In this document: piece by piece, positions 17,275 to 25,249 of the stretch
Layout of the letters: the number at the start of each line of letters is the position of its first letter
Position numbering within the stretch: the first letter of the stretch is position 1
Origin: Roseospira navarrensis
Lineage (GTDB): Bacteria > Pseudomonadota > Alphaproteobacteria > Rhodospirillales > Rhodospirillaceae
Length of the DNA stretch: 64,000 nucleotides
NCBI RefSeq assembly: GCF_009601025.1
Contig: NZ_WIVE01000001.1
Coordinates: 124,001-188,000 of the forward strand
Direction of reading: 5' to 3'
Translations under genes and position numbers: made by a program
Notes under the pieces: generated by a model
Told to the model about the DNA's origin: nothing
Database searches by the model: none
What the model saw: only the letters and a program-made list of their open reading frames with translations

Positions 17275-18375
17275 GTGACGGTCTCGGCCGCCCTGGGCGA
17301 CTCCAGGCGAAGCCGGCTGCGGTCGGGACCGCGCCCCCGCGCCGTCGGCCTGTGGCTGCTGGGCTGTGCCGGACTGGTGGGGGGCATGGTGCTGCTGGGC
17401 GGGCTGACCCGCCTGACCGAGTCCGGCCTGTCCATCGTGGACTGGCGGCCGGTCACCGGCCTGCTGCCGCCCCTGACCGAGGCCGAGTGGCAGGCCCGGT
17501 TCCTGGCCTATCAGGACTCGCCGCAGTTCCGGCAGGTCAACAGCGCGATGACCCTGGACGGGTTCAAGGGCATCTTCTGGCTGGAGTACCTGCACCGCCT
17601 GCTGGGGCGGCTGATCGGGCTTGCGTTCCTGTTGCCGCTGGTGTGGTTCTGGGTCCGGGGCACCATCCCCAAGGGCTACCATGCGAAGCTCGTCGGGCTG
17701 TTCGTGCTGGGCGGGCTGCAGGGCCTGATGGGCTGGCTGATGGTGCAGAGCGGCCTTGTGGACCGCCCCCACGTCAGTCACCTGCGGCTGGCTGCCCACA
17801 TGGGGCTGGCGGTGGTCATCCTCGCCGCCCTGCTGTGGGTGGCGCTGGACCTGCTGCGCGGTCCCCCGGAGAGCACCGAGGCGGCGCACCCGTCCCTGGC
17901 CGGCACGCGGCGGCTGGCGCGACTCGCGCTGGCCCTGACGGGGGTCACCATCCTGGCCGGGGCCCTGGTCGCCGGGCTGGATGCCGGCCTGAGCTTCAAC
18001 ACCTTTCCCCTGATGGCCGGGCAGTGGATTCCGGACGGCCTGGGTCACCTGGAGCCCTGGTGGCGCAACGCCCTGGACAATGTCATTGCCGTGCAGTGGC
18101 AACACCGCTGGCTCGCCATCGTGACCGTGGCCCTGGTTCTTGGGGTCGCGTGGCAGGGGCTGCGCACGCCGCTGCAGGGCGCCGACCGCTGGCCGTTCCG
18201 CCTGTTGCCGGTGGCCGCGCTGGGACAGGCGGCGCTGGGCGTCTCCACCCTGCTGCTGGCGGTGCCCATCCCCCTGGCCGTGGCCCACCAGGGCGGCGCG
18301 CTGGCAATCACCACACTCCTGGTGTGGGCGCTTCACGTGACGCGCGATGCTGCGGCGCACAAGCCGCATCGGTAG
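17275..18375 (+). CDS. ctaA: Haem A synthase (CtaA/Cox15, type 2)
   Basis: A 366-residue, eight-helix monooxygenase converting haem O to haem A for the aa3 oxidase. Conserved segments are GGLTRLTESGLSIVDWRPVTG, GIFWLEYLHRLLGRLIG (haem-ligand His), SHLRLAAHMGLAV, GLDAGLSFNTFPLM and VQWQHRWLAI, plus VAHQGGALA (second haem His). The N-terminal half lacks the paired cysteines of the short Bacillus type, matching the long alphaproteobacterial and mitochondrial type. Starts with GTG 4 bp after ctaB. The next gene is 146 bp downstream and functionally unrelated. Confidence 0.96.
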   Translation: MTVSAALGDSRRSRLRSGPRPRAVGLWLLGCAGLVGGMVLLGGLTRLTESGLSIVDWRPVTGLLPPLTEAEWQARFLAYQDSPQFRQVNSAMTLDGFKGIFWLEYLHRLLGRLIGLAFLLPLVWFWVRGTIPKGYHAKLVGLFVLGGLQGLMGWLMVQSGLVDRPHVSHLRLAAHMGLAVVILAALLWVALDLLRGPPESTEAAHPSLAGTRRLARLALALTGVTILAGALVAGLDAGLSFNTFPLMAGQWIPDGLGHLEPWWRNALDNVIAVQWQHRWLAIVTVALVLGVAWQGLRTPLQGADRWPFRLLPVAALGQAALGVSTLLLAVPIPLAVAHQGGALAITTLLVWALHVTRDAAAHKPHR

Positions 18376-18521: not shown

Positions 18522-19826
18522 GTGACTGCGCGGACCCCTCATCCCCCCTCGCTCTGGGCGGCCGTCAGCCCGCCCACACCGGAGCGCCCGCCGCTGACCG
18601 GCGACGCCACGGCGGACGTGGCCATCGTCGGCGCCGGCTTCACCGGGCTGTCCACGGCGCTCGCCCTGGCCGCGCGCGGGGTCCGTCCGGTGGTGCTGGA
18701 GGCGGCGGCGGTGGGATGGGGCGGATCGGGGCGCAACAACGGGCAGGTGATCCCGGTGCTCTCCAAGGCCGAGCCCGACGAGCTGGAGGCCCGCTTCGGC
18801 GAGACCGGGGAACGCCTCGTGGCCCTGATCCGCGACAGTGCGAGCATCCTGTTCGATCTGGTGCGCGCCGAGGGCATCGAGGCCGAGGCCGAGCAGACCG
18901 GCTGGGTCCAGCCCGCCCACGCGCCGGACCGGGTGCGGGTCTCGGCGGCGCGGGTGGAGGCCTGGGCGAAGCGGGGCGCGCCCGCGCAAATGCTGGACCG
19001 GGAGGAAACCACTGCGCTGATGGGCTCCTCTTATTGGCACGGCGCCATGCTCAATCCCACCGGCGGGTCGATCAATCCGCTGAGGCTGGCGCAGGGCATG
19101 GCGGCGGCGGCGGAGCGCCACGGGGCCACCGTCCATGAGGACACGCCCGTCAGCCGCCTGGAGCGCGCGGGCGACGGCTGGCGGCTGGAAACCCCGACCG
19201 GCCGCCTGACGGCGCGCGCAGTGCTGCTGGCCACCAACGCCTATACCGATGCGCATGCGCCGGGGCTGGCCCGGCGGCTGGCCCGCACGGTGGTGCCCGT
19301 GCCGTCCTGGCAGATGGCGACCGAGCCCCTGCCGGACGCCGTGGCGAAGACCGTCACGCCCGGGCGTCACGCCGTCTCCGACACCCGGGGCGATCTGCAC
19401 TTTTTCCGCCTGGATGCCCGCAACCGGCTGGTCACGGGCGGCGCCCTGGTCACGAAAGTCAACGGAACCGAGCGGATCCGGCGGCTGGCGACGGCGCGGG
19501 TGGCCCGCATGTTCCCCCAGATCGGGCCGGTCGGGTTCACGCACATCTGGAACGGGGATATCGGCATCACCTGGGACCGCATGCCCCATGTCCACCGCCT
19601 CGGCCCCGGTCTGTGGACCTGGATCGGCTGCAACGGGCGCGGGGTGGCGCTGTCGGTGGCGCTCGGCCCGCAACTGGCCGCCGCCCTGCTGGGTGACCGC
19701 GAGGGCGCGGCCGCGCTGCCCGTGACCGACGTTCATCCCATCCCCGGCCATGCCCTCGGCCGGCGGCTGGCCACCCTCATGCTGCCGGTCTACCGCCGCC
19801 GCGACCGGCGGCCGCTGCCGGCCTGA
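18522..19826 (+). CDS. FAD-dependent amine/amino acid oxidase (DAO family, PuuB-like)
   Basis: A 434-residue flavoenzyme of the DAO fold. The N-terminal dinucleotide motif is DVAIVGAGFTGLSTALALA, with GWGGSGRNNGQVIPVLSKAE for FAD contacts and the C-terminal GWIGCNGRGVALSVALGPQL. This layout matches gamma-glutamylputrescine oxidase-type proteins (PuuB/OrdL), which oxidise secondary or primary amines with oxygen to an aldehyde. The real substrate is unknown. Starts with GTG at 18522 after a GGGAG motif. It lies ahead of an ATC-hydrolase-like gene (21 bp) and a Liv-type transporter, suggesting uptake and oxidation of one nitrogen compound; this link is inference. Confidence 0.85.
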   Translation: MTARTPHPPSLWAAVSPPTPERPPLTGDATADVAIVGAGFTGLSTALALAARGVRPVVLEAAAVGWGGSGRNNGQVIPVLSKAEPDELEARFGETGERLVALIRDSASILFDLVRAEGIEAEAEQTGWVQPAHAPDRVRVSAARVEAWAKRGAPAQMLDREETTALMGSSYWHGAMLNPTGGSINPLRLAQGMAAAAERHGATVHEDTPVSRLERAGDGWRLETPTGRLTARAVLLATNAYTDAHAPGLARRLARTVVPVPSWQMATEPLPDAVAKTVTPGRHAVSDTRGDLHFFRLDARNRLVTGGALVTKVNGTERIRRLATARVARMFPQIGPVGFTHIWNGDIGITWDRMPHVHRLGPGLWTWIGCNGRGVALSVALGPQLAAALLGDREGAAALPVTDVHPIPGHALGRRLATLMLPVYRRRDRRPLPA

Positions 19827-19847
19827 CCCCGTACCGGAGACGTCCCC

Positions 19848-20351
19848 ATGAGCGACACGCCCCCCGTCACCCCCACCGTCACATTGGACATGTTGAAGGC
19901 GGCCTTCGCCATGCGCGCCGAGGCCTATGCCCGGATGTACGACGTGCTGTCGGAGGAGTTCGGCCCCGAACGCGCCGTCGAGCTGATCGGCCGGGCCACC
20001 CGCCGCATGGGCGAGCAGATGGGCGAACGCTTCAAGGGCCTCGGCCCGGACGATCTGGCTGGGCTGAAGGATGCCTTCCTGGGCGGCATTCCGTGCGGCG
20101 AAGAGATGTTCGCCCCCGAGGTCCGCCGCTGCGACGACGAGATGCTGGAGATCAAGTTCCACCGCTGCCCCCTGAAGGACGTGTGGGTGGCCAACGGCCG
20201 CAGCGACACGGATGTGCGCGACCTGTGCCGCGCCGCCGGGGCCATCGACGGCGGCCTGTTCACCACCGCCGGGTTCACCTTCCTGGGCGAGACCTGGCGG
20301 CCCGGCGAGACCGGCTGCTGCCTGCTGCGGGTGGCCCCGGGCGGCGCGTGA
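19848..20351 (+). CDS. L-2-amino-thiazoline-4-carboxylic acid hydrolase-like protein
   Basis: A 167-residue soluble protein resembling the ATC hydrolase family (Pfam ATC_hydrolase), named for ring opening of 2-aminothiazoline-4-carboxylate to S-carbamoyl-cysteine. Visible family-like features are an N-terminal helical part (MRAEAYARMYDVLSEEFGPE) and a C-terminal part with spaced cysteines: IPCGEEMFAPEVRRCDDEML, FHRCPLKDVW, VRDLCRAAGAIDGGLF, ending in FTFLGETWRPGETGCCLLRV. Most members have untested substrates. It lies between the oxidase and the Liv-type binding protein, so it may act on the imported compound. The ATG follows CCGGAGACG. Confidence 0.6.
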   Translation: MSDTPPVTPTVTLDMLKAAFAMRAEAYARMYDVLSEEFGPERAVELIGRATRRMGEQMGERFKGLGPDDLAGLKDAFLGGIPCGEEMFAPEVRRCDDEMLEIKFHRCPLKDVWVANGRSDTDVRDLCRAAGAIDGGLFTTAGFTFLGETWRPGETGCCLLRVAPGGA

Positions 20352-20357
20352 CGCGCG

Positions 20358-20411
20358 GCCCCCGACCCCCGACCCACGACCCCCGACCCCAGACCCCCGA
20401 CCACGACACCA
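20358..20411. repeat. Short degenerate CCCCCGA tandem repeat
   Basis: About seven imperfect copies of a (C)CCCCGAC/CCCACGAC-type unit run between the ATC-hydrolase-like stop and the binding-protein ribosome-binding site. Such a low-complexity tract may vary in length between strains by slippage. It is too far from the start codon to shift the reading frame and could only alter spacing in the leader. Confidence 0.6.
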
Positions 20412-20438
20412 GACATCACAGGGACGGAGAGACACACC

Positions 20439-21578
20439 ATGACGAGCGTGACGGGAATCACCCGCAGAACCGCCCTCGGCCTCGCCCTGGGCACCGGCCT
20501 CGTGATCGGCGGCGCCGCCGGCGCCTGGGCGCAGGAGGACCCGGTCGTCATCGGCTATCAACTGCCGCTGACCGGCAACACCGCGCAGTACGGCCAGGAC
20601 TTCAAGACCGCCGCCGAGATCGCGCTGGAGGACTTCAACGCCTCCGGCCGCCTGCCGGTGCCGGTGGAGATCATCTTCGAGGACTCCCGCTCCGACGCCA
20701 AGGAGGGGGTCAACATCGCCCGCAAGTTCGTGGACAACGACGACATCGTGGCCGTCCTGGGCGACTTCACCTCGACCGTGTCCATGGCCGCCGCCCAGGT
20801 CTACAAGCAGGCCGGCATGCCGCAGCTCAGCCAGACGGCGTCGCATCCGGACTACGCCAGGATCTCCCCCTACCAGTTCCGCAACATCACCACCCAGGCC
20901 CAGGAAGGCGAGGTCAACGCCAACTGGCTGTGGGAGCGCGGCTTCCGCAAGGTCGCGGTGATCGCCGAGCAGACCGACTGGGGCCAGGCGGTGGTGCAGG
21001 GCTTCACCGCGCCGTTCGAAGAAATGGGCGGCGAGATCGTCTATTCCGAGTTCTTCAACCGGGGCCTGCCGGACTTCCGCTCGATCATCACCAAGATCCA
21101 GCGGGCCGAGCCGGACGCCATTTACACCGGCCTGTTCTACGAGGACGGCGCGCAGTTCCTGAAGCAGATGGAACAGCTCGGCGCGGACATCCCGGTGCAT
21201 TCCACCTCGGCCGCCTACAACCAGAAGCTGGTCGAGCTGGCCGGTCCGGCGGCCGATGACCTGTACCTGACGGCCACCTTCCTGCCCACCAGCGAGGGCG
21301 AGCACGTCCAGGAGTTCGTTGCCGCCTGGAAGGCCGCCCGGGACGGCCAGGAGCCCGGTCAGTTCCCGGCGCAGGCCTATGACGCGGTGAACATCATGCT
21401 CGACGCCGTGGTGCGCGCGTGGCCGGACGTGACCCGCGAGTCCATGCGCGAGGCGCTGGCGGCGACCGAGGACTTCCCGGGGGTGACCGGCGTGACCTCG
21501 TTCGACGAGGACGGCGAGCCCGAAAAGCAGATGACCCGCGCCCGCATCGTGGACGGCGTGTTTGTGGAAGTGCAGTAA
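20439..21578 (+). CDS. Branched-chain amino acid-type ABC transporter substrate-binding protein
   Basis: A 379-residue periplasmic type I binding protein (LivK/Peripla_BP_6). The signal peptide contains ITRRTALGLALG, which resembles a Tat signal, and ends at GAWAQ (about residue 32). The mature start EDPVVIGYQLPLTGNTAQYGQD, the AVLGDFTSTVSMAAAQVY loop and the FRNITTQ and DWGQAVVQGF segments are family features. The ligand may be a branched-chain amino acid, amide or related nitrogen compound; sequence alone does not tell. It is followed by a GC hairpin and a REP-like repeat before livH. Confidence 0.92.
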   Translation: MTSVTGITRRTALGLALGTGLVIGGAAGAWAQEDPVVIGYQLPLTGNTAQYGQDFKTAAEIALEDFNASGRLPVPVEIIFEDSRSDAKEGVNIARKFVDNDDIVAVLGDFTSTVSMAAAQVYKQAGMPQLSQTASHPDYARISPYQFRNITTQAQEGEVNANWLWERGFRKVAVIAEQTDWGQAVVQGFTAPFEEMGGEIVYSEFFNRGLPDFRSIITKIQRAEPDAIYTGLFYEDGAQFLKQMEQLGADIPVHSTSAAYNQKLVELAGPAADDLYLTATFLPTSEGEHVQEFVAAWKAARDGQEPGQFPAQAYDAVNIMLDAVVRAWPDVTRESMREALAATEDFPGVTGVTSFDEDGEPEKQMTRARIVDGVFVEVQ

Positions 21579-21607
21579 CGAGGCCAAGGAACGCGGCCAA
21601 GGAACGC

Positions 21608-21637
21608 GGGACGCGGCCGCAGGCGCGGCCGCGTCCC
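21608..21637. terminator. GC-rich hairpin after the Liv binding-protein gene
   Basis: A 13-bp perfect stem, GGGACGCGGCCGC (21608-21620) against GCGGCCGCGTCCC (21625-21637), with an AGGC loop. It begins 30 bp after the stop codon. It lacks a T-run, so it may act as a 3'-end protector or partial terminator rather than a full intrinsic terminator. Confidence 0.6.
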
Positions 21638-21663
21638 GGTGCCGCCGCCGTCAGAGCGTGCCT

Positions 21664-21757
21664 CCCGAGATCCCTCGGCGCGCTTTGCGCGCTCGGGATG
21701 ACGAATAAAAATAGAGGATGTCATCCTGACGGAGCGAAGCGACGGACGGATCTCGGG
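21664..21757. repeat. REP-like palindromic repeat, copy C
   Basis: Same family as 8688-8780: it starts CCCGAGATCCCTCGG and ends CGGACGGATCTCGGG, with CTCGGGATGAC and GTCATCCTGACGGAGC inside. The central loop ATAAAAATAG is A/T-rich, as in copies B and D. It lies between the Liv binding-protein gene and livH. Confidence 0.9.
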
Positions 21758-21830
21758 CAGGAGTCTCCGACCGTTTGCAATTGACCCCGTCACCCTGGTT
21801 TCCCTTCAGCGTCTCTGGACCCAACCGCCC

Positions 21831-22742
21831 ATGGATCCCTATTACGTTCAGCAATTGGCCATCGGGCTGTCGCTCGGCATGATCTACGCCCTGATGGCGA
21901 TCGGCTTCACGCTGATCTTCGGCGTGCTCAACGTGGTCAACTTCGCCCACGGCGAGGTCTATTCCATCGGCGCGTTCGCCGGTCTGCTGCTGATAACCGC
22001 CTTCGGGCCGCCGCTGCTGGCGGTGTTCCTGTTGGTGCTGGCGGTGGGCGCGGCGACGGGCTTCGGGCTGGAGCGGCTGGCCTTCCGCCCGTTCCGGCGC
22101 TTCTCCGACGAGGCCTCGCTGAAGTCGCGGGCCATGCGCGAAGCGACGCTGATGTCCTCGCTGGCGCTATCCATCTTCACCCGCGAGGCCATGGAGCTGG
22201 TGTTCGGCTCCGAGTTCCAGACCGTGCCCCTGGATTACCTCATCAACGAGCCGATCGCCCTGGGGCCGGTGACCATCGTGACCGGCGACATCATCATCTT
22301 CGTCGCCGCCGCCGTCATGCTGGGCGGGCTGCAGTATCTGCTGACCCGCACCGCGACCGGACGGGCGATCCGGGCGGTGTCGAACAATCCGCTCGGCGCG
22401 AAGTACGTGGGCATCAACACCAACCGCACCATCGTTCTGACCTTCGTCATCGGCTCCATGATGGGCGCGCTGGCGGGCATCATGGTGGGGCTGTACTACG
22501 GGGCCATCTTCCCGGCCATGGGGTTCACCCCCGCCGTCAAGGCGTTCGTGGCCATGGTGATGGGCGGGCTGTCCTCGATCCCGGGGGCGGTGATCTGTGC
22601 CCTCATCATCGGCGTGTCCGAGAGTCTGGCCACCACCTTCGTTTCGTCCGTGTGGGCCGACATGGTGGCCTACAGTTTCCTTCTGCTCACCCTGGTGCTG
22701 TTCCCCCAGGGCCTGTTCGGAAAGGGCCGCGACCGTGTCTGA
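21831..22742 (+). CDS. livH: Branched-chain amino acid-type ABC permease LivH
   Basis: A 303-residue permease with about eight helices. Starts MDPYYVQQLAIGLSLGMIYA and contains FTLIFGVLNVVNFAHGEVYS, the conserved LivH N-terminal signature. The region KYVGINTNRTIVLTFVIGSM and the cytoplasmic loop AFVAMVMGGLSSIPGAVICA match LivH contacts with the ATPases. It overlaps livM by eight bases. It works with LivM, LivG and LivF encoded immediately downstream and the binding protein at 20439. Confidence 0.95.
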   Translation: MDPYYVQQLAIGLSLGMIYALMAIGFTLIFGVLNVVNFAHGEVYSIGAFAGLLLITAFGPPLLAVFLLVLAVGAATGFGLERLAFRPFRRFSDEASLKSRAMREATLMSSLALSIFTREAMELVFGSEFQTVPLDYLINEPIALGPVTIVTGDIIIFVAAAVMLGGLQYLLTRTATGRAIRAVSNNPLGAKYVGINTNRTIVLTFVIGSMMGALAGIMVGLYYGAIFPAMGFTPAVKAFVAMVMGGLSSIPGAVICALIIGVSESLATTFVSSVWADMVAYSFLLLTLVLFPQGLFGKGRDRV

Positions 22743-23784
22743 GACCGACACCGTGACCGATCGCCCGGCGTCCGCCCCGAAGGCCCGCGCCCGGGCGAGG
22801 CTGCTGCAGGGCGGCATCCTGCTGCTGCTGTTCGCGCTGCTGCCGGCGGTGCTGGTGTGGTTCGACCGCGGCTACTTCTATCAATTGGCCATGCTGGCGC
22901 TGATCTTCGTGCTGCTGGCCGGCTCGCTGCATCTGGTGACGGGCGTCGCCGGGCTGCTGCACCTGGGGCACGCGGCGTTCTATGGGGTGGGGGCCTATAT
23001 CGCCGGACTGCTGGCGGCGGACCACGGCATCGGCTTCACCATCGGGCTGCCGCTGGCCGGTCTGGGGGCGGCCGCCATCGCCTTTCTGGTGGCGCTGCCC
23101 ACCATGCGGCTGGTGAGCATCTATTTCGCCGTGGCGACCCTGGCCATCGGGCAAATGCTGTTCCTGGTCATGCAGAACTGGGTGGCGGTCACCAAGGGAC
23201 CCAACGGCGTGATCCTGTTCGGCGGCATCGACCTGTTCGGCCTGGAGATCGGCTCGCGCCTGGGGATCTATTACGTGGTGGCGGTGGTGGTGGCGGTGTC
23301 CATCTGGGTGATCCACCGCCTGACGGACTCCTATTACGGCAACGCCCTGCGCAGCCTGCGCGAGGACGACCAGTGCGCCGGGGCCATGGGGCTGGACACC
23401 GTGCGCCTGAAGATGGAGGCATTCACCATCGCCTCGTTCTTCGCCGGCATCGCCGGGGCGCTGTGGGCCTATACGACCGGCTACATCTCGCCGGTGGACT
23501 TCGACTTTTTCGAATCCATCCTGATCCTGGCCATGGTGGTCGTGGGCGGCCTGGGCAGCCTGCCCGGGGCCATCCTGGGGGCGCTGCTGCTGATCCTGCT
23601 GCCGGAGGTGCTGCGCGACGTGGGCGATGTGCGCAACATGCTGGTCGGTCTGGTCATGTTCCTGTCCATCCTGTTCCTGCCCAAGGGCCTGTTCGGCGAG
23701 GTGCCGGCGCTGGCCCTGATGCGCCGCCACTTCGACGCGGCGTGGCCGGGCGCGGGCGAGCGGCGGGTGGGGTGGCGCGGATGA
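22735..23784 (+). CDS. livM: Branched-chain amino acid-type ABC permease LivM
   Basis: A 349-residue second permease. The GTG at 22735 starts eight bases before the livH stop, giving a soluble N-terminus VSETDTVTDRPASAPKARAR before the first helix. Conserved LivM segments are GVAGLLHLGHAAFYGVGAYI, RLVSIYFAVATLAIGQMLF, SLREDDQCAGAMGLDTVRLK (cytoplasmic ATPase-contact loop) and AMVVVGGLGSLPGAILGALL. The stop overlaps the livG start (ATGA), so the four membrane and ATPase genes form one coupled unit. Confidence 0.94.
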   Translation: MSETDTVTDRPASAPKARARARLLQGGILLLLFALLPAVLVWFDRGYFYQLAMLALIFVLLAGSLHLVTGVAGLLHLGHAAFYGVGAYIAGLLAADHGIGFTIGLPLAGLGAAAIAFLVALPTMRLVSIYFAVATLAIGQMLFLVMQNWVAVTKGPNGVILFGGIDLFGLEIGSRLGIYYVVAVVVAVSIWVIHRLTDSYYGNALRSLREDDQCAGAMGLDTVRLKMEAFTIASFFAGIAGALWAYTTGYISPVDFDFFESILILAMVVVGGLGSLPGAILGALLLILLPEVLRDVGDVRNMLVGLVMFLSILFLPKGLFGEVPALALMRRHFDAAWPGAGERRVGWRG

Positions 23785-24539
23785 CGGCGGCGCTGCTGGA
23801 GATCGAGGAGGCCACCCGCCGCTTCGGCGGGCTGGTGGCGGTCAACGAGGTCTCGACCCACGTGGCGGAGGGCGAGCTGGTCGGCCTGATCGGCCCCAAC
23901 GGGGCCGGCAAGACCACGCTGTTCAACCTGATCTCGGGCTTCACGCCGCTGACCAGCGGCCGGGTGCGCTATCGGGGGCGGGACATCACCGGCCTGAAAT
24001 CGCACCAGATCGGCCGCCTTGGCATCGCCCGCACGTTCCAGAACCTGCGCGTGTTCCCCAACATGAGCGTGTTCGACAACGTCTCGGTGGGGGCGACGGG
24101 CGCGGTCGGGCTGCCGTTCTTCCGGGCCGTGGCCGGCGGGCGGCGGCGGTCCGACGCGATCTCGCGGCGCAGTCTGGCGGCGCTGGAGCGGGTCGGGCTG
24201 GTCGCCCAGGCCGACGATCTGGCCGCCAACCTGGCCTACGGCAAGCGCAAGTACCTGGAGATCGCTCGCGCGCTCGCCATGCACCCCGACCTGTTGATTC
24301 TGGACGAGCCGGCGGCGGGCCTGAACGAGTCCGAGACCGCCGAACTGGCCGCCTTCATCCGCTCGCTCCGGGACGAGGGCCTGACCGTCATGCTGGTCGA
24401 GCACGACATGGCCCTGGTCATGAGCATCTGCGAGCGGGTGGTGGTGCTGGCCTCGGGCCAGAAGATCGCCGACGCCCCGCCCGACGCCGTGCGCCGCGAT
24501 CCGGCCGTGCTGGAAGCCTATCTGGGAGTGGACGAATGA
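23781..24539 (+). CDS. livG: Branched-chain amino acid-type ABC ATPase LivG
   Basis: A 252-residue ATPase. Walker A GPNGAGKTT, Q-loop RTFQNLRVFPNMSV, signature LAYGKRKYLEIARAL (the Y/K-for-S/Q form usual in LivG), Walker B LLILDEPAAGLN and switch His in MLVEHDMALV. ATG at 23781 overlaps the livM stop. Its own stop overlaps the livF start. Confidence 0.95.
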   Translation: MTAALLEIEEATRRFGGLVAVNEVSTHVAEGELVGLIGPNGAGKTTLFNLISGFTPLTSGRVRYRGRDITGLKSHQIGRLGIARTFQNLRVFPNMSVFDNVSVGATGAVGLPFFRAVAGGRRRSDAISRRSLAALERVGLVAQADDLAANLAYGKRKYLEIARALAMHPDLLILDEPAAGLNESETAELAAFIRSLRDEGLTVMLVEHDMALVMSICERVVVLASGQKIADAPPDAVRRDPAVLEAYLGVDE

Positions 24540-25249
24540 CACCGATCCTGGAGATCGATGGCGTCGGCCTGCGCATCGGCGTCCAGGACATCCTGCGCGA
24601 TGTCTCCCTTCGCCTGCCCCAGGGCGGCATCGTTGCCATCCTGGGGTCGAACGGGGTGGGCAAGACCAGCCTGATGCGCACCATTTCCGGGGTCTATCAG
24701 GCCACGTCCGGGGCCATCCGGCACCAGGGCGAGGACATCACCCGCCTGCAAAGCCACGAGATCGTCGCGCGCGGCATCCTGCAGGCGCCGGAGGGGCGGC
24801 AGATCTTCTCCAACATGACGGTGCGCGAGAACCTGGTGATCGGCGGCGGGCCGCACGGGCTGGCGGAGCTGGACCACGTGGTCTCGCTGTTTCCCGCCCT
24901 GGGGGAGCGCCTGTCGCAGGGCGCGGGCTCGCTGTCGGGCGGGGAACAGCAGATGCTCTGCATCGGCCGGGCGCTGATGCGCAAGCCCTCGGTGCTGCTG
25001 CTGGACGAGCCGTCGCTGGGGCTGGCGCCCAAGCTGGTGCGGTTCATCTTCGACCTGATCGAGCGCATCCGCTCGGAGGGCTATTCCGTGCTGATCGTGG
25101 AGCAGAACGCCAAGGCCGCGCTCAGGGTGGCCGACACGGCCTCGGTCATCGAGGGCGGGCGGATCGTGATCGAGGGGCCGGCGCGCGACCTGGCGGACGA
25201 CCCGCGCATCGCCGAAGCCTACCTCGGCGGTCACGTGCATGTTCCGTGA
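24536..25249 (+). CDS. livF: Branched-chain amino acid-type ABC ATPase LivF
   Basis: A 237-residue partner ATPase. Walker A GSNGVGKTS, Q-loop LQAPEGRQIFSNMTVRENL, signature LSGGEQQMLCIGRAL, Walker B VLLLDEPSLGLAPKLV and the LivF-type IVEQNAKAALRVAD. It starts within the livG stop codon (ATGA). It is the last gene of the transporter; a REP-like repeat and the atp promoter follow. Confidence 0.95.
   Translation: MTPILEIDGVGLRIGVQDILRDVSLRLPQGGIVAILGSNGVGKTSLMRTISGVYQATSGAIRHQGEDITRLQSHEIVARGILQAPEGRQIFSNMTVRENLVIGGGPHGLAELDHVVSLFPALGERLSQGAGSLSGGEQQMLCIGRALMRKPSVLLLDEPSLGLAPKLVRFIFDLIERIRSEGYSVLIVEQNAKAALRVADTASVIEGGRIVIEGPARDLADDPRIAEAYLGGHVHVP

Follow-up and report, generated by a model that had tools for sequence, protein, structure and literature searches.

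An oxidase, PF14196 and Liv-type transporter gene cluster in Roseospira navarrensis and its possible role in thiazolidine-4-carboxylate catabolism

What do a flavin oxidase, a divergent PF14196 protein and a complete Liv-type importer do together in one run of genes? The question is raised by a locus of Roseospira navarrensis, analyzed here within a window of 64,000 nucleotides (RefSeq assembly GCF_009601025.1, contig NZ_WIVE01000001.1, forward-strand positions 124,001 to 188,000; "the window" means this whole stretch throughout). Seven plus-strand genes form one run at window positions 18522–25249, in the order OX (the oxidase), ATC1 (the PF14196 protein), SBP (the substrate-binding protein), LivH, LivM, LivG and LivF. 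Judging from sequence, we suggest that these genes may constitute the import and first-step half of a pathway for thiazolidine-4-carboxylate catabolism, a reading to which we assign a probability of roughly 0.5.

Gene content and recurrence of the unit

An initial annotation had placed an oxidase, an ATC-hydrolase-like protein and a Liv-type importer in this run, and the Pfam scores confirm all three. OX (18522–19826) is a flavin adenine dinucleotide (FAD) oxidase of the DAO family (PF01266, 218.4 bits against a cut-off of 27.9), ATC1 (19848–20351) is a divergent PF14196 protein of 167 amino acids (44.6 bits, cut-off 28.1), and SBP (20439–21578) is a Liv-type (Peripla_BP_6) substrate-binding protein (PF13458, 222.8 bits). 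The importer is completed by a LivH-type permease (21831–22742; PF02653, 146.1 bits), a LivM-type permease (22735–23784; PF02653, 130.2 bits), a LivG-type ATPase (23781–24539; ABC_tran 112.6 bits, BCA_ABC_TP_C 39.7 bits) and a LivF-type ATPase (24536–25249; ABC_tran 108.9 bits). This is the architecture of LivKHMGF systems, with a binding protein, two PF02653 permeases and two ATP-binding cassette (ABC) ATPases. The LivM start at 22735 is the gene caller's choice, and the 130.2-bit score was obtained with a version having a longer N terminus, from 22597. The GTG start of OX at 18522 is backed by columns invariant with Stappia, the first at residue 10; the gene caller favored an alternative start at 18618. 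Spacing within the run is operon-like, with gaps of 21 bp between OX and ATC1 and 87 bp between ATC1 and SBP, and overlaps at the LivH/LivM, LivM/LivG and LivG/LivF junctions.

The same genes cluster in Stappia, in genomes of the window's family and on Azospirillum plasmids, which at the level of sequence supports the earlier proposal of one import-and-breakdown unit. Four Stappia genomes carry OX-ATC1-SBP-LivHMGF in the order seen in the window, so that OX, ATC1 and a Liv-type SBP occur together in 4/4 loci. Among 73 genomes of the family, seven (the window's own included) have an ATC1 match; in each of the six others the genes for OX, ATC1 and SBP are neighbors, OX being divergently oriented, and LivHMGF comes next in the four where the fetched DNA runs on (G038, G027, G028 and G023 in our numbering). 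Three Azospirillum plasmid clusters also combine OX, ATC1 and SBP: Az39 p2 has the order M20, OX, ATC1, SBP, LivHMGF, ATC2, while on Az39 p4 and on A. lipoferum 4B p4 the run begins with Lrp, Rid and a cysteine-synthase-fold enzyme and continues with ATC1, SBP, LivHMGF, ATC2, M20 and OX. ATC2 denotes an additional PF14196 gene of canonical type; the two proteins scanned score 127.2 and 135.9 bits. Stappia and the four family genomes also carry it 3' of LivF, with two other genes intervening in G038. An M20 amidohydrolase gene follows ATC2 in the family genomes. In the window's genome the ATC2-M20 pair is found on another contig (C122, 18705–20422; locus L048), and Stappia has M20 relatives of 51–52 percent identity elsewhere in the genome.

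Since the grouping recurs in other genera, in the same or a rearranged order, it reflects more than chance. The components are Liv-type, as they would be if a common importer of branched-chain amino acids lay by chance beside two unrelated enzymes; that explanation is disfavored and scarcely credible in our view, as the grouping recurs, rearranged, in several orders and the importer scores fall below all Liv model cut-offs. The nearest relatives of the window's unit are in Stappia, outside the window's family: identity to the Stappia proteins is 66–69 percent for ATC1 and 79–80 percent for LivH, against 41–47 and 69–72 percent, respectively, for the family genomes. Together with the lack of an ATC1 match in the other five of the six genomes of the genus, this suggests from sequence comparison that the unit was gained laterally.

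The oxidase and the enzymes that accompany it

The core of these clusters is OX with a PF14196 protein, and the importer varies between Liv and Dpp types. The trio OX-ATC2-M20 occurs with a Dpp-type importer in two genera of the family (g7 and g12) and in one genome of family f22. On plasmids, 20 OX relatives were listed of 1,187 matching records, and six new ones were inspected; among the matches listed, those of Agrobacterium, Sagittula, Pseudosulfitobacter and Ochrobactrum have the arrangement Dpp-OX-PF14196-M20, and that of A. lipoferum has the Liv form. A quick tree was built from 36 OX-like proteins. One of its branches, with support 69, has all 24 oxidases linked to PF14196 on one side, and support rises to 98 when a Roseomonas plasmid relative (L201) is placed on that side. 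The window's OX belongs to a nine-row clade (support 99) with those of Stappia, which accompany Liv importers, and of Agrobacterium, Ochrobactrum, Sagittula and Pseudosulfitobacter, which accompany Dpp importers; OX-like paralogues from the window's genus lie outside it. A glyoxalase-like VOC gene was seen upstream of the Dpp-type OX clusters in 4/4 cases (L174, L175, L200, L202). A Lrp-family gene is annotated beside it in three of them; L202 has no annotation and gave no Lrp call.

The initial annotation had called OX a PuuB-like flavin oxidase. Membership of the DAO family of FAD oxidases stands, and "PuuB-like" proves loose, as the best curated match is the L-pipecolate oxidase AmaA (NF050086, 264.4 bits, below the cut-off of 600). 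A PuuB-like unit oxidizing polyamines or gamma-glutamyl amines would agree with the DAO family assignment and with one genus in which ATC1 lies near a DAO gene and a glutamine-synthetase-like gene (L238). We consider such a unit very improbable here. There is no glutamine-synthetase-like gene among the seven genes of the unit, the rest of the genome not having been searched for one, and we know of no role for a PF14196 protein or an aminoacylase in the PuuB pathway, which we count against it.

More information on the reaction is offered by the M20 enzymes. The expectation, set beforehand, was that, should OX produce a thiazoline that opens to an N-acylcysteine, M20 enzymes of aminoacylase type accompany OX and those of carbamoylase type occur without it; it was only partly blind, as L048, L012, L014, L049 and L050 had already been typed and the plasmid product names already seen. 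PF14196 searches covered 297 genomes of the order (27 with a match) and 385 of the class (56 with a match), from which 96 loci were taken, leaving out five weak class matches and the window's own unit. Our own profiles gave a PF14196 call in 89 of the 96, and OX was counted at a score of at least 300 bits within 8 kb. OX is present in ten of these 89 loci, and an aminoacylase-type M20 gene accompanies it in 8/10, versus 5/79 loci without OX (Fisher p 7e-7; this and the other p-value below serve as a guide only, because these loci, which are related to one another, also served in part to train the profiles). In all, 16 of the 24 unit OX loci show an M20 aminoacylase in the fetched DNA. The eight that show none are the window, where an M20 scan gave no gene of aminoacylase or carbamoylase type, the four Stappia loci, whose M20 genes lie elsewhere in the genome, two loci cut by contig ends (L013 and L016), and L143. 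Seven M20 proteins (L048, L012, L014, L049, L050, L174 and L175) were typed as TIGR01891, the aminoacylase type, with NCBIfam models (347–359 bits, cut-off 154), and those of L172 and L173, which have PF14196 without OX, as TIGR01879, the carbamoylase type (463 and 389 bits, cut-off 204). One of eight proteins taken as possible M20 enzymes, L054:8477, is a transporter.

Near PF14196 genes without OX, the M20 enzyme is of carbamoylase type in eight loci and of aminoacylase type in five. The eight comprise the plasmid loci L171 (in pieces), L172 and L173 and five loci from an independent later draw across the phylum. That draw covered 398 genomes, 30 of them with PF14196; three loci had been fetched earlier and one weak match was omitted, and of the 27 loci fetched 18 had a PF14196 call. 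In 5/5 loci with M20 directly beside PF14196 (L214, L215, L217, L218, L222), all from other classes, M20 is of carbamoylase type and OX is absent; three of the M20 assignments were confirmed by NCBIfam (385–432 bits). The rule is blurred in this draw by weaker OX-like genes near PF14196 without M20, scoring 355 (L223), 278 (L238), 271 (L237) and 72 bits (L221), and by L226, which has an M20 gene at 448 bits and no PF14196 call.

These results bear on the possibility that the unit handles 2-aminothiazoline-4-carboxylate (ATC), by the classical ATC route, or some ready-made thiazoline, with OX acting on a side product or second substrate. PF14196 is named after ATC hydrolase activity, and four of the five classical-looking clusters of other classes, in which PF14196 stands with a carbamoylase-type M20, have a Liv-type binding protein (all but L217). 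Because of these four, transport of thiazoline or thiazolidine acids may be frequent among Liv importers. We nonetheless regard the classical substrate as distinctly unlikely for the window's unit: the carbamoylase-type M20 of the classical pathway was found in 0/24 OX loci, window included, the M20 enzymes in OX loci are of aminoacylase type in 16/16, and the classical route, as described in excerpts of PMC10821248, needs no oxidase.

A link to cysteine is suggested by pyridoxal-phosphate (PLP) enzymes beside some of the clusters. In Agrobacterium and on Azospirillum p4 the enzyme has a cysteine-synthase fold, with the L-cysteine desulfhydrase Cds1 as its best match by far (562 and 536 bits, cut-off 600). 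Sagittula and Stappia have class-V enzymes, whose matches to cysteine-desulfurase families score well below cut-off. Cds1-like or desulfurase-like genes stand beside the OX clusters of five genera. Cysteine-degrading PLP genes lie near PF14196 in 9/11 Stappia and plasmid OX loci (L200 and L203 being positive, L202 negative, and the gene in L009 about 5.5 kb from OX), and in only one of the 79 sampled PF14196 loci without OX (L122). The Rid and Lrp genes of the Azospirillum p4 clusters are also counted in favor of our reading. In the six genomes of the window's genus, the cluster-type cysteine desulfhydrase was not found (best 31 percent identity). As a separate observation, the distant PF14196 gene of L122 lies close to genes for a Cds1-like cysteine desulfhydrase (531.5 bits) and for a DAO protein that is very divergent; a similar pathway may have been assembled there independently.

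The initial annotation had offered a thiazoline, a cyclic amide or a secondary amine as substrate; the M20 aminoacylase and, in some lineages, the cysteine-degrading PLP enzymes beside relatives lead us to narrow these to a cysteine-derived thiazolidine. The support from cysteine genes is confined to some lineages, because the 9/11 Stappia and plasmid loci stand against 0/10 OX loci in the order and class samples. This zero weighs against our reading and favors one in which the unit degrades a cyclic secondary amine or N-heterocycle unrelated to cysteine, such as a pipecolate- or proline-like compound, PF14196 opening a cyclic imine or amide made by OX. The curated match of OX to L-pipecolate oxidase would agree with this, and a PF14196 fold of ligand-binding type, as modeled, could take other rings. 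Such a substrate is unlikely in view of the desulfhydrase-like and desulfurase-like genes near OX clusters in five genera, but it is the first alternative to be considered after a cysteine-derived ring.

The binding protein, ATC1 and points against the reading

The importer departs from the Liv models in all five components, whose scores relative to the cut-offs are 125/477 for SBP, 182/379 for LivH, 204/366 for LivM, 254/362 for LivG and 219/441 for LivF. The cut-offs of the Urt models are not reached either (UrtA 62/493, UrtB 142/250, UrtC 107/296, UrtD 210/304, UrtE 201/286). By sequence, the nearest solved structure to SBP is 3hut_A (E 2.6e-91), which we take to be a structural-genomics entry from Rhodospirillum rubrum. 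The binding protein of locus L049 in genome G037, where SBP-ATC2-M20 is clustered with a divergent OX, is identical to 3hut at 347 of 348 aligned residues; a structure of a binding protein from such a cluster therefore already exists. The PDB title of 3hut calls it a "putative branched-chain amino acid ABC transporter" binding protein, and a search of open-licence papers for 3HUT together with Rhodospirillum rubrum turned up no publication.

Four relatives besides 3hut were aligned with the window's SBP. Its Ser257 corresponds to Asp, in a GDG motif, in 3td9, 4gnr and 3ip5 and falls in a gap in 4mlc; of ten PF14196-linked binding proteins, nine have Ser at the equivalent position and one (L132) has Thr. 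The acidic residue at this site presumably holds the alpha-ammonium group of amino acids. Its loss is consistent with a ligand that lacks a primary ammonium group and, so far as residues can tell, argues against leucine, isoleucine and valine as ligands. A binding protein specific for these three amino acids, which would have spoken against the initial annotation, is thus not indicated by either the model scores or the replaced Asp.

ATC1 is set apart from canonical PF14196 members by a branch with 35 of 118 rows (support 100, length 2.69) in a quick tree. Its Cys107, Cys127 and Cys157 are invariant across five ATC1 and four ATC2 rows, and a cluster of three conserved Cys is reported for the PF14196 domain in the excerpted text of PMC5847659, which also describes the domain as similar to V4R and HNOB domains. 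The predicted ATC1 structure, from nine rows, is of moderate quality (predicted local distance difference test [pLDDT] 71.2, predicted template modeling score [pTM] 0.69). Foldseek returned nothing for it at E <= 0.001, the best match being TRAPP subunit 3 at 1.2e-3, and VIA-align gave Z scores of 11.8 to TRAPP Bet3-TPC6B, 9.5 to the MopR sensor and 5.8 to H-NOX. The model resembles the TRAPP/V4R fold and is used only as support for the published V4R/HNOB kinship. A Liv-type gene is present in 11/24 ATC1-type loci versus 3/65 others (p 1.5e-5, from related loci and partly trained profiles), and ATC1 lies beside further Liv-type importers in L132, L133, L135, L137 and L159. From its sequence, ATC1 might open rings as a second hydrolase, or it might assist the importer as a ligand-binding accessory.

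Several further observations weigh against a pathway for thiazolidine-4-carboxylates. In one alphaproteobacterial genus of the phylum draw, an ATC1-type gene stands beside a Dpp importer in 7/7 species with a match (L230, L233, L234, L235, L237, L238, L239), and the L238 locus also holds genes for DeoR, a DAO oxidase, a glutamine-synthetase-like protein and an M24 peptidase; because of these contexts, ATC1 is not tied to the proposed chemistry alone. The M20 contrast is not clean, as the aminoacylase type occurs without OX in L048, L056, L147, L150 and L154, of which L150 and L154 are cut by a contig end. Among these, ATC2 with an aminoacylase-type M20 and no OX at the same locus is found in the window's own genome (L048) and in its genus (G032, L056). 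Carbamoylase-type M20 was expected beside many PF14196 genes without OX, and the order and class samples yielded none; all cases come from plasmids or from the phylum draw. L143 has OX and ATC1 without M20, and one of the six inspected plasmid OX loci among the matches listed, Roseomonas L201, has neither PF14196 nor M20. The OX model, with a mean pLDDT of 41.7, is too poor for use. Separately, the Roseomonas OX relative adjoins hydantoinase/oxoprolinase A and B genes and an ABC importer.

In the surroundings of the run, the sole larger gap is the 252 bp from SBP to LivH, which holds a dispersed intergenic repeat (21660–21775). The repeat has 57 matches in the window's genome, counting the window copy and some overlapping opposite-strand matches, and the stronger ones are mostly about 95–117 bases long at 78–88 percent identity. 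The gap between ATC1 and SBP contains a short C-rich, tandem-like stretch (20352–20420) with repeated CCCCGACC-like words. With translations judged by eye, the upstream neighbors look like heme or cytochrome oxidase assembly genes and those downstream like ATP synthase genes. The ctaA-like gene (by eye) upstream of OX (17275–18375) has a match in only three of the six genomes of the genus, one of the three genomes without a match being 88 percent complete. In the two other genus members that have this gene, G034 and G032, the genes 3' of it are unlike the window's and unlike each other's.

The proposed pathway and its relation to known systems

Thiazolidine-4-carboxylates are ring adducts of cysteine and aldehydes, of which thioproline, from formaldehyde, is the simplest, and pipecolate oxidase acts on a cyclic secondary amine. 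In the pathway we propose, the Liv-type transporter would import a thiazolidine-4-carboxylate and OX, as a cyclic-secondary-amine oxidase, would oxidize the ring N-C2 bond to give a thiazoline. A PF14196 hydrolase (ATC1, ATC2 or both) would open the thiazoline to an N-acylcysteine, from which the M20 aminoacylase, encoded beside ATC2 on another contig in the window's genome, would free cysteine. Where relatives encode a desulfhydrase or desulfurase-like enzyme next to the cluster, this enzyme would then break down the cysteine. We infer the substrate, the order of reactions and every enzyme activity from what was observed directly, namely gene content, recurrence and the M20 type found with OX. 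More broadly, and more tentatively, the clusters may represent a laterally mobile, dedicated pathway that salvages cysteine-aldehyde adducts by import, oxidation by a distinct DAO subfamily, PF14196 ring opening and deacylation to cysteine.

If the proposal is correct, bacteria would either feed on cysteine-aldehyde adducts or detoxify them, and a product of aldehyde stress would become a source of sulfur, nitrogen and carbon. A distinct oxidase subfamily would also gain a function, as would PF14196 proteins named by family membership alone and a binding protein of known structure that is labeled "branched-chain amino acid". According to an excerpt of PMC9814826, thioproline arises spontaneously from cysteine and formaldehyde, and according to one of PMC13131673 it drives formaldehyde toxicity in E. 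coli and not in Methylobacterium extorquens. Among the open-licence papers listed in our literature searches, none described such a cluster or pathway.

Comparison with known systems indicates which parts of the proposal are familiar. With LivKHMGF/HAAT importers, the window's system has the five-part architecture in common, and it differs in scoring below every Liv and Urt cut-off and in the replacement of Asp by Ser in the binding protein. OX shares the DAO family with AmaA, its nearest NCBIfam model, but reaches 264 bits against a cut-off of 600. In the E. coli and mitochondrial route of works cited in PMC9814826, thioproline is converted to N-formylcysteine, and the titles of these works name proline dehydrogenase and pyrroline-5-carboxylate reductase. 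The proposed substrate type and the N-acylcysteine intermediate would be alike; unlike that route, in which proline enzymes are credited, the present clusters combine a separate DAO oxidase, a ring-hydrolase family and an importer. In the classical Pseudomonas pathway described in PMC10821248, ATC hydrolase acts first and ATC is converted to cysteine through N- or S-carbamoylcysteine. A PF14196 hydrolase, an M20 amidohydrolase and cysteine as end product are common to that pathway and to the one proposed here. Unlike the classical pathway, the present clusters have an FAD oxidase and an aminoacylase-type M20, and in the window's genome ATC2 and M20 lie away from the importer. The unit would thus be of a known kind, the breakdown of thiazolines to cysteine, with the added oxidase and aminoacylase as its putative new elements.

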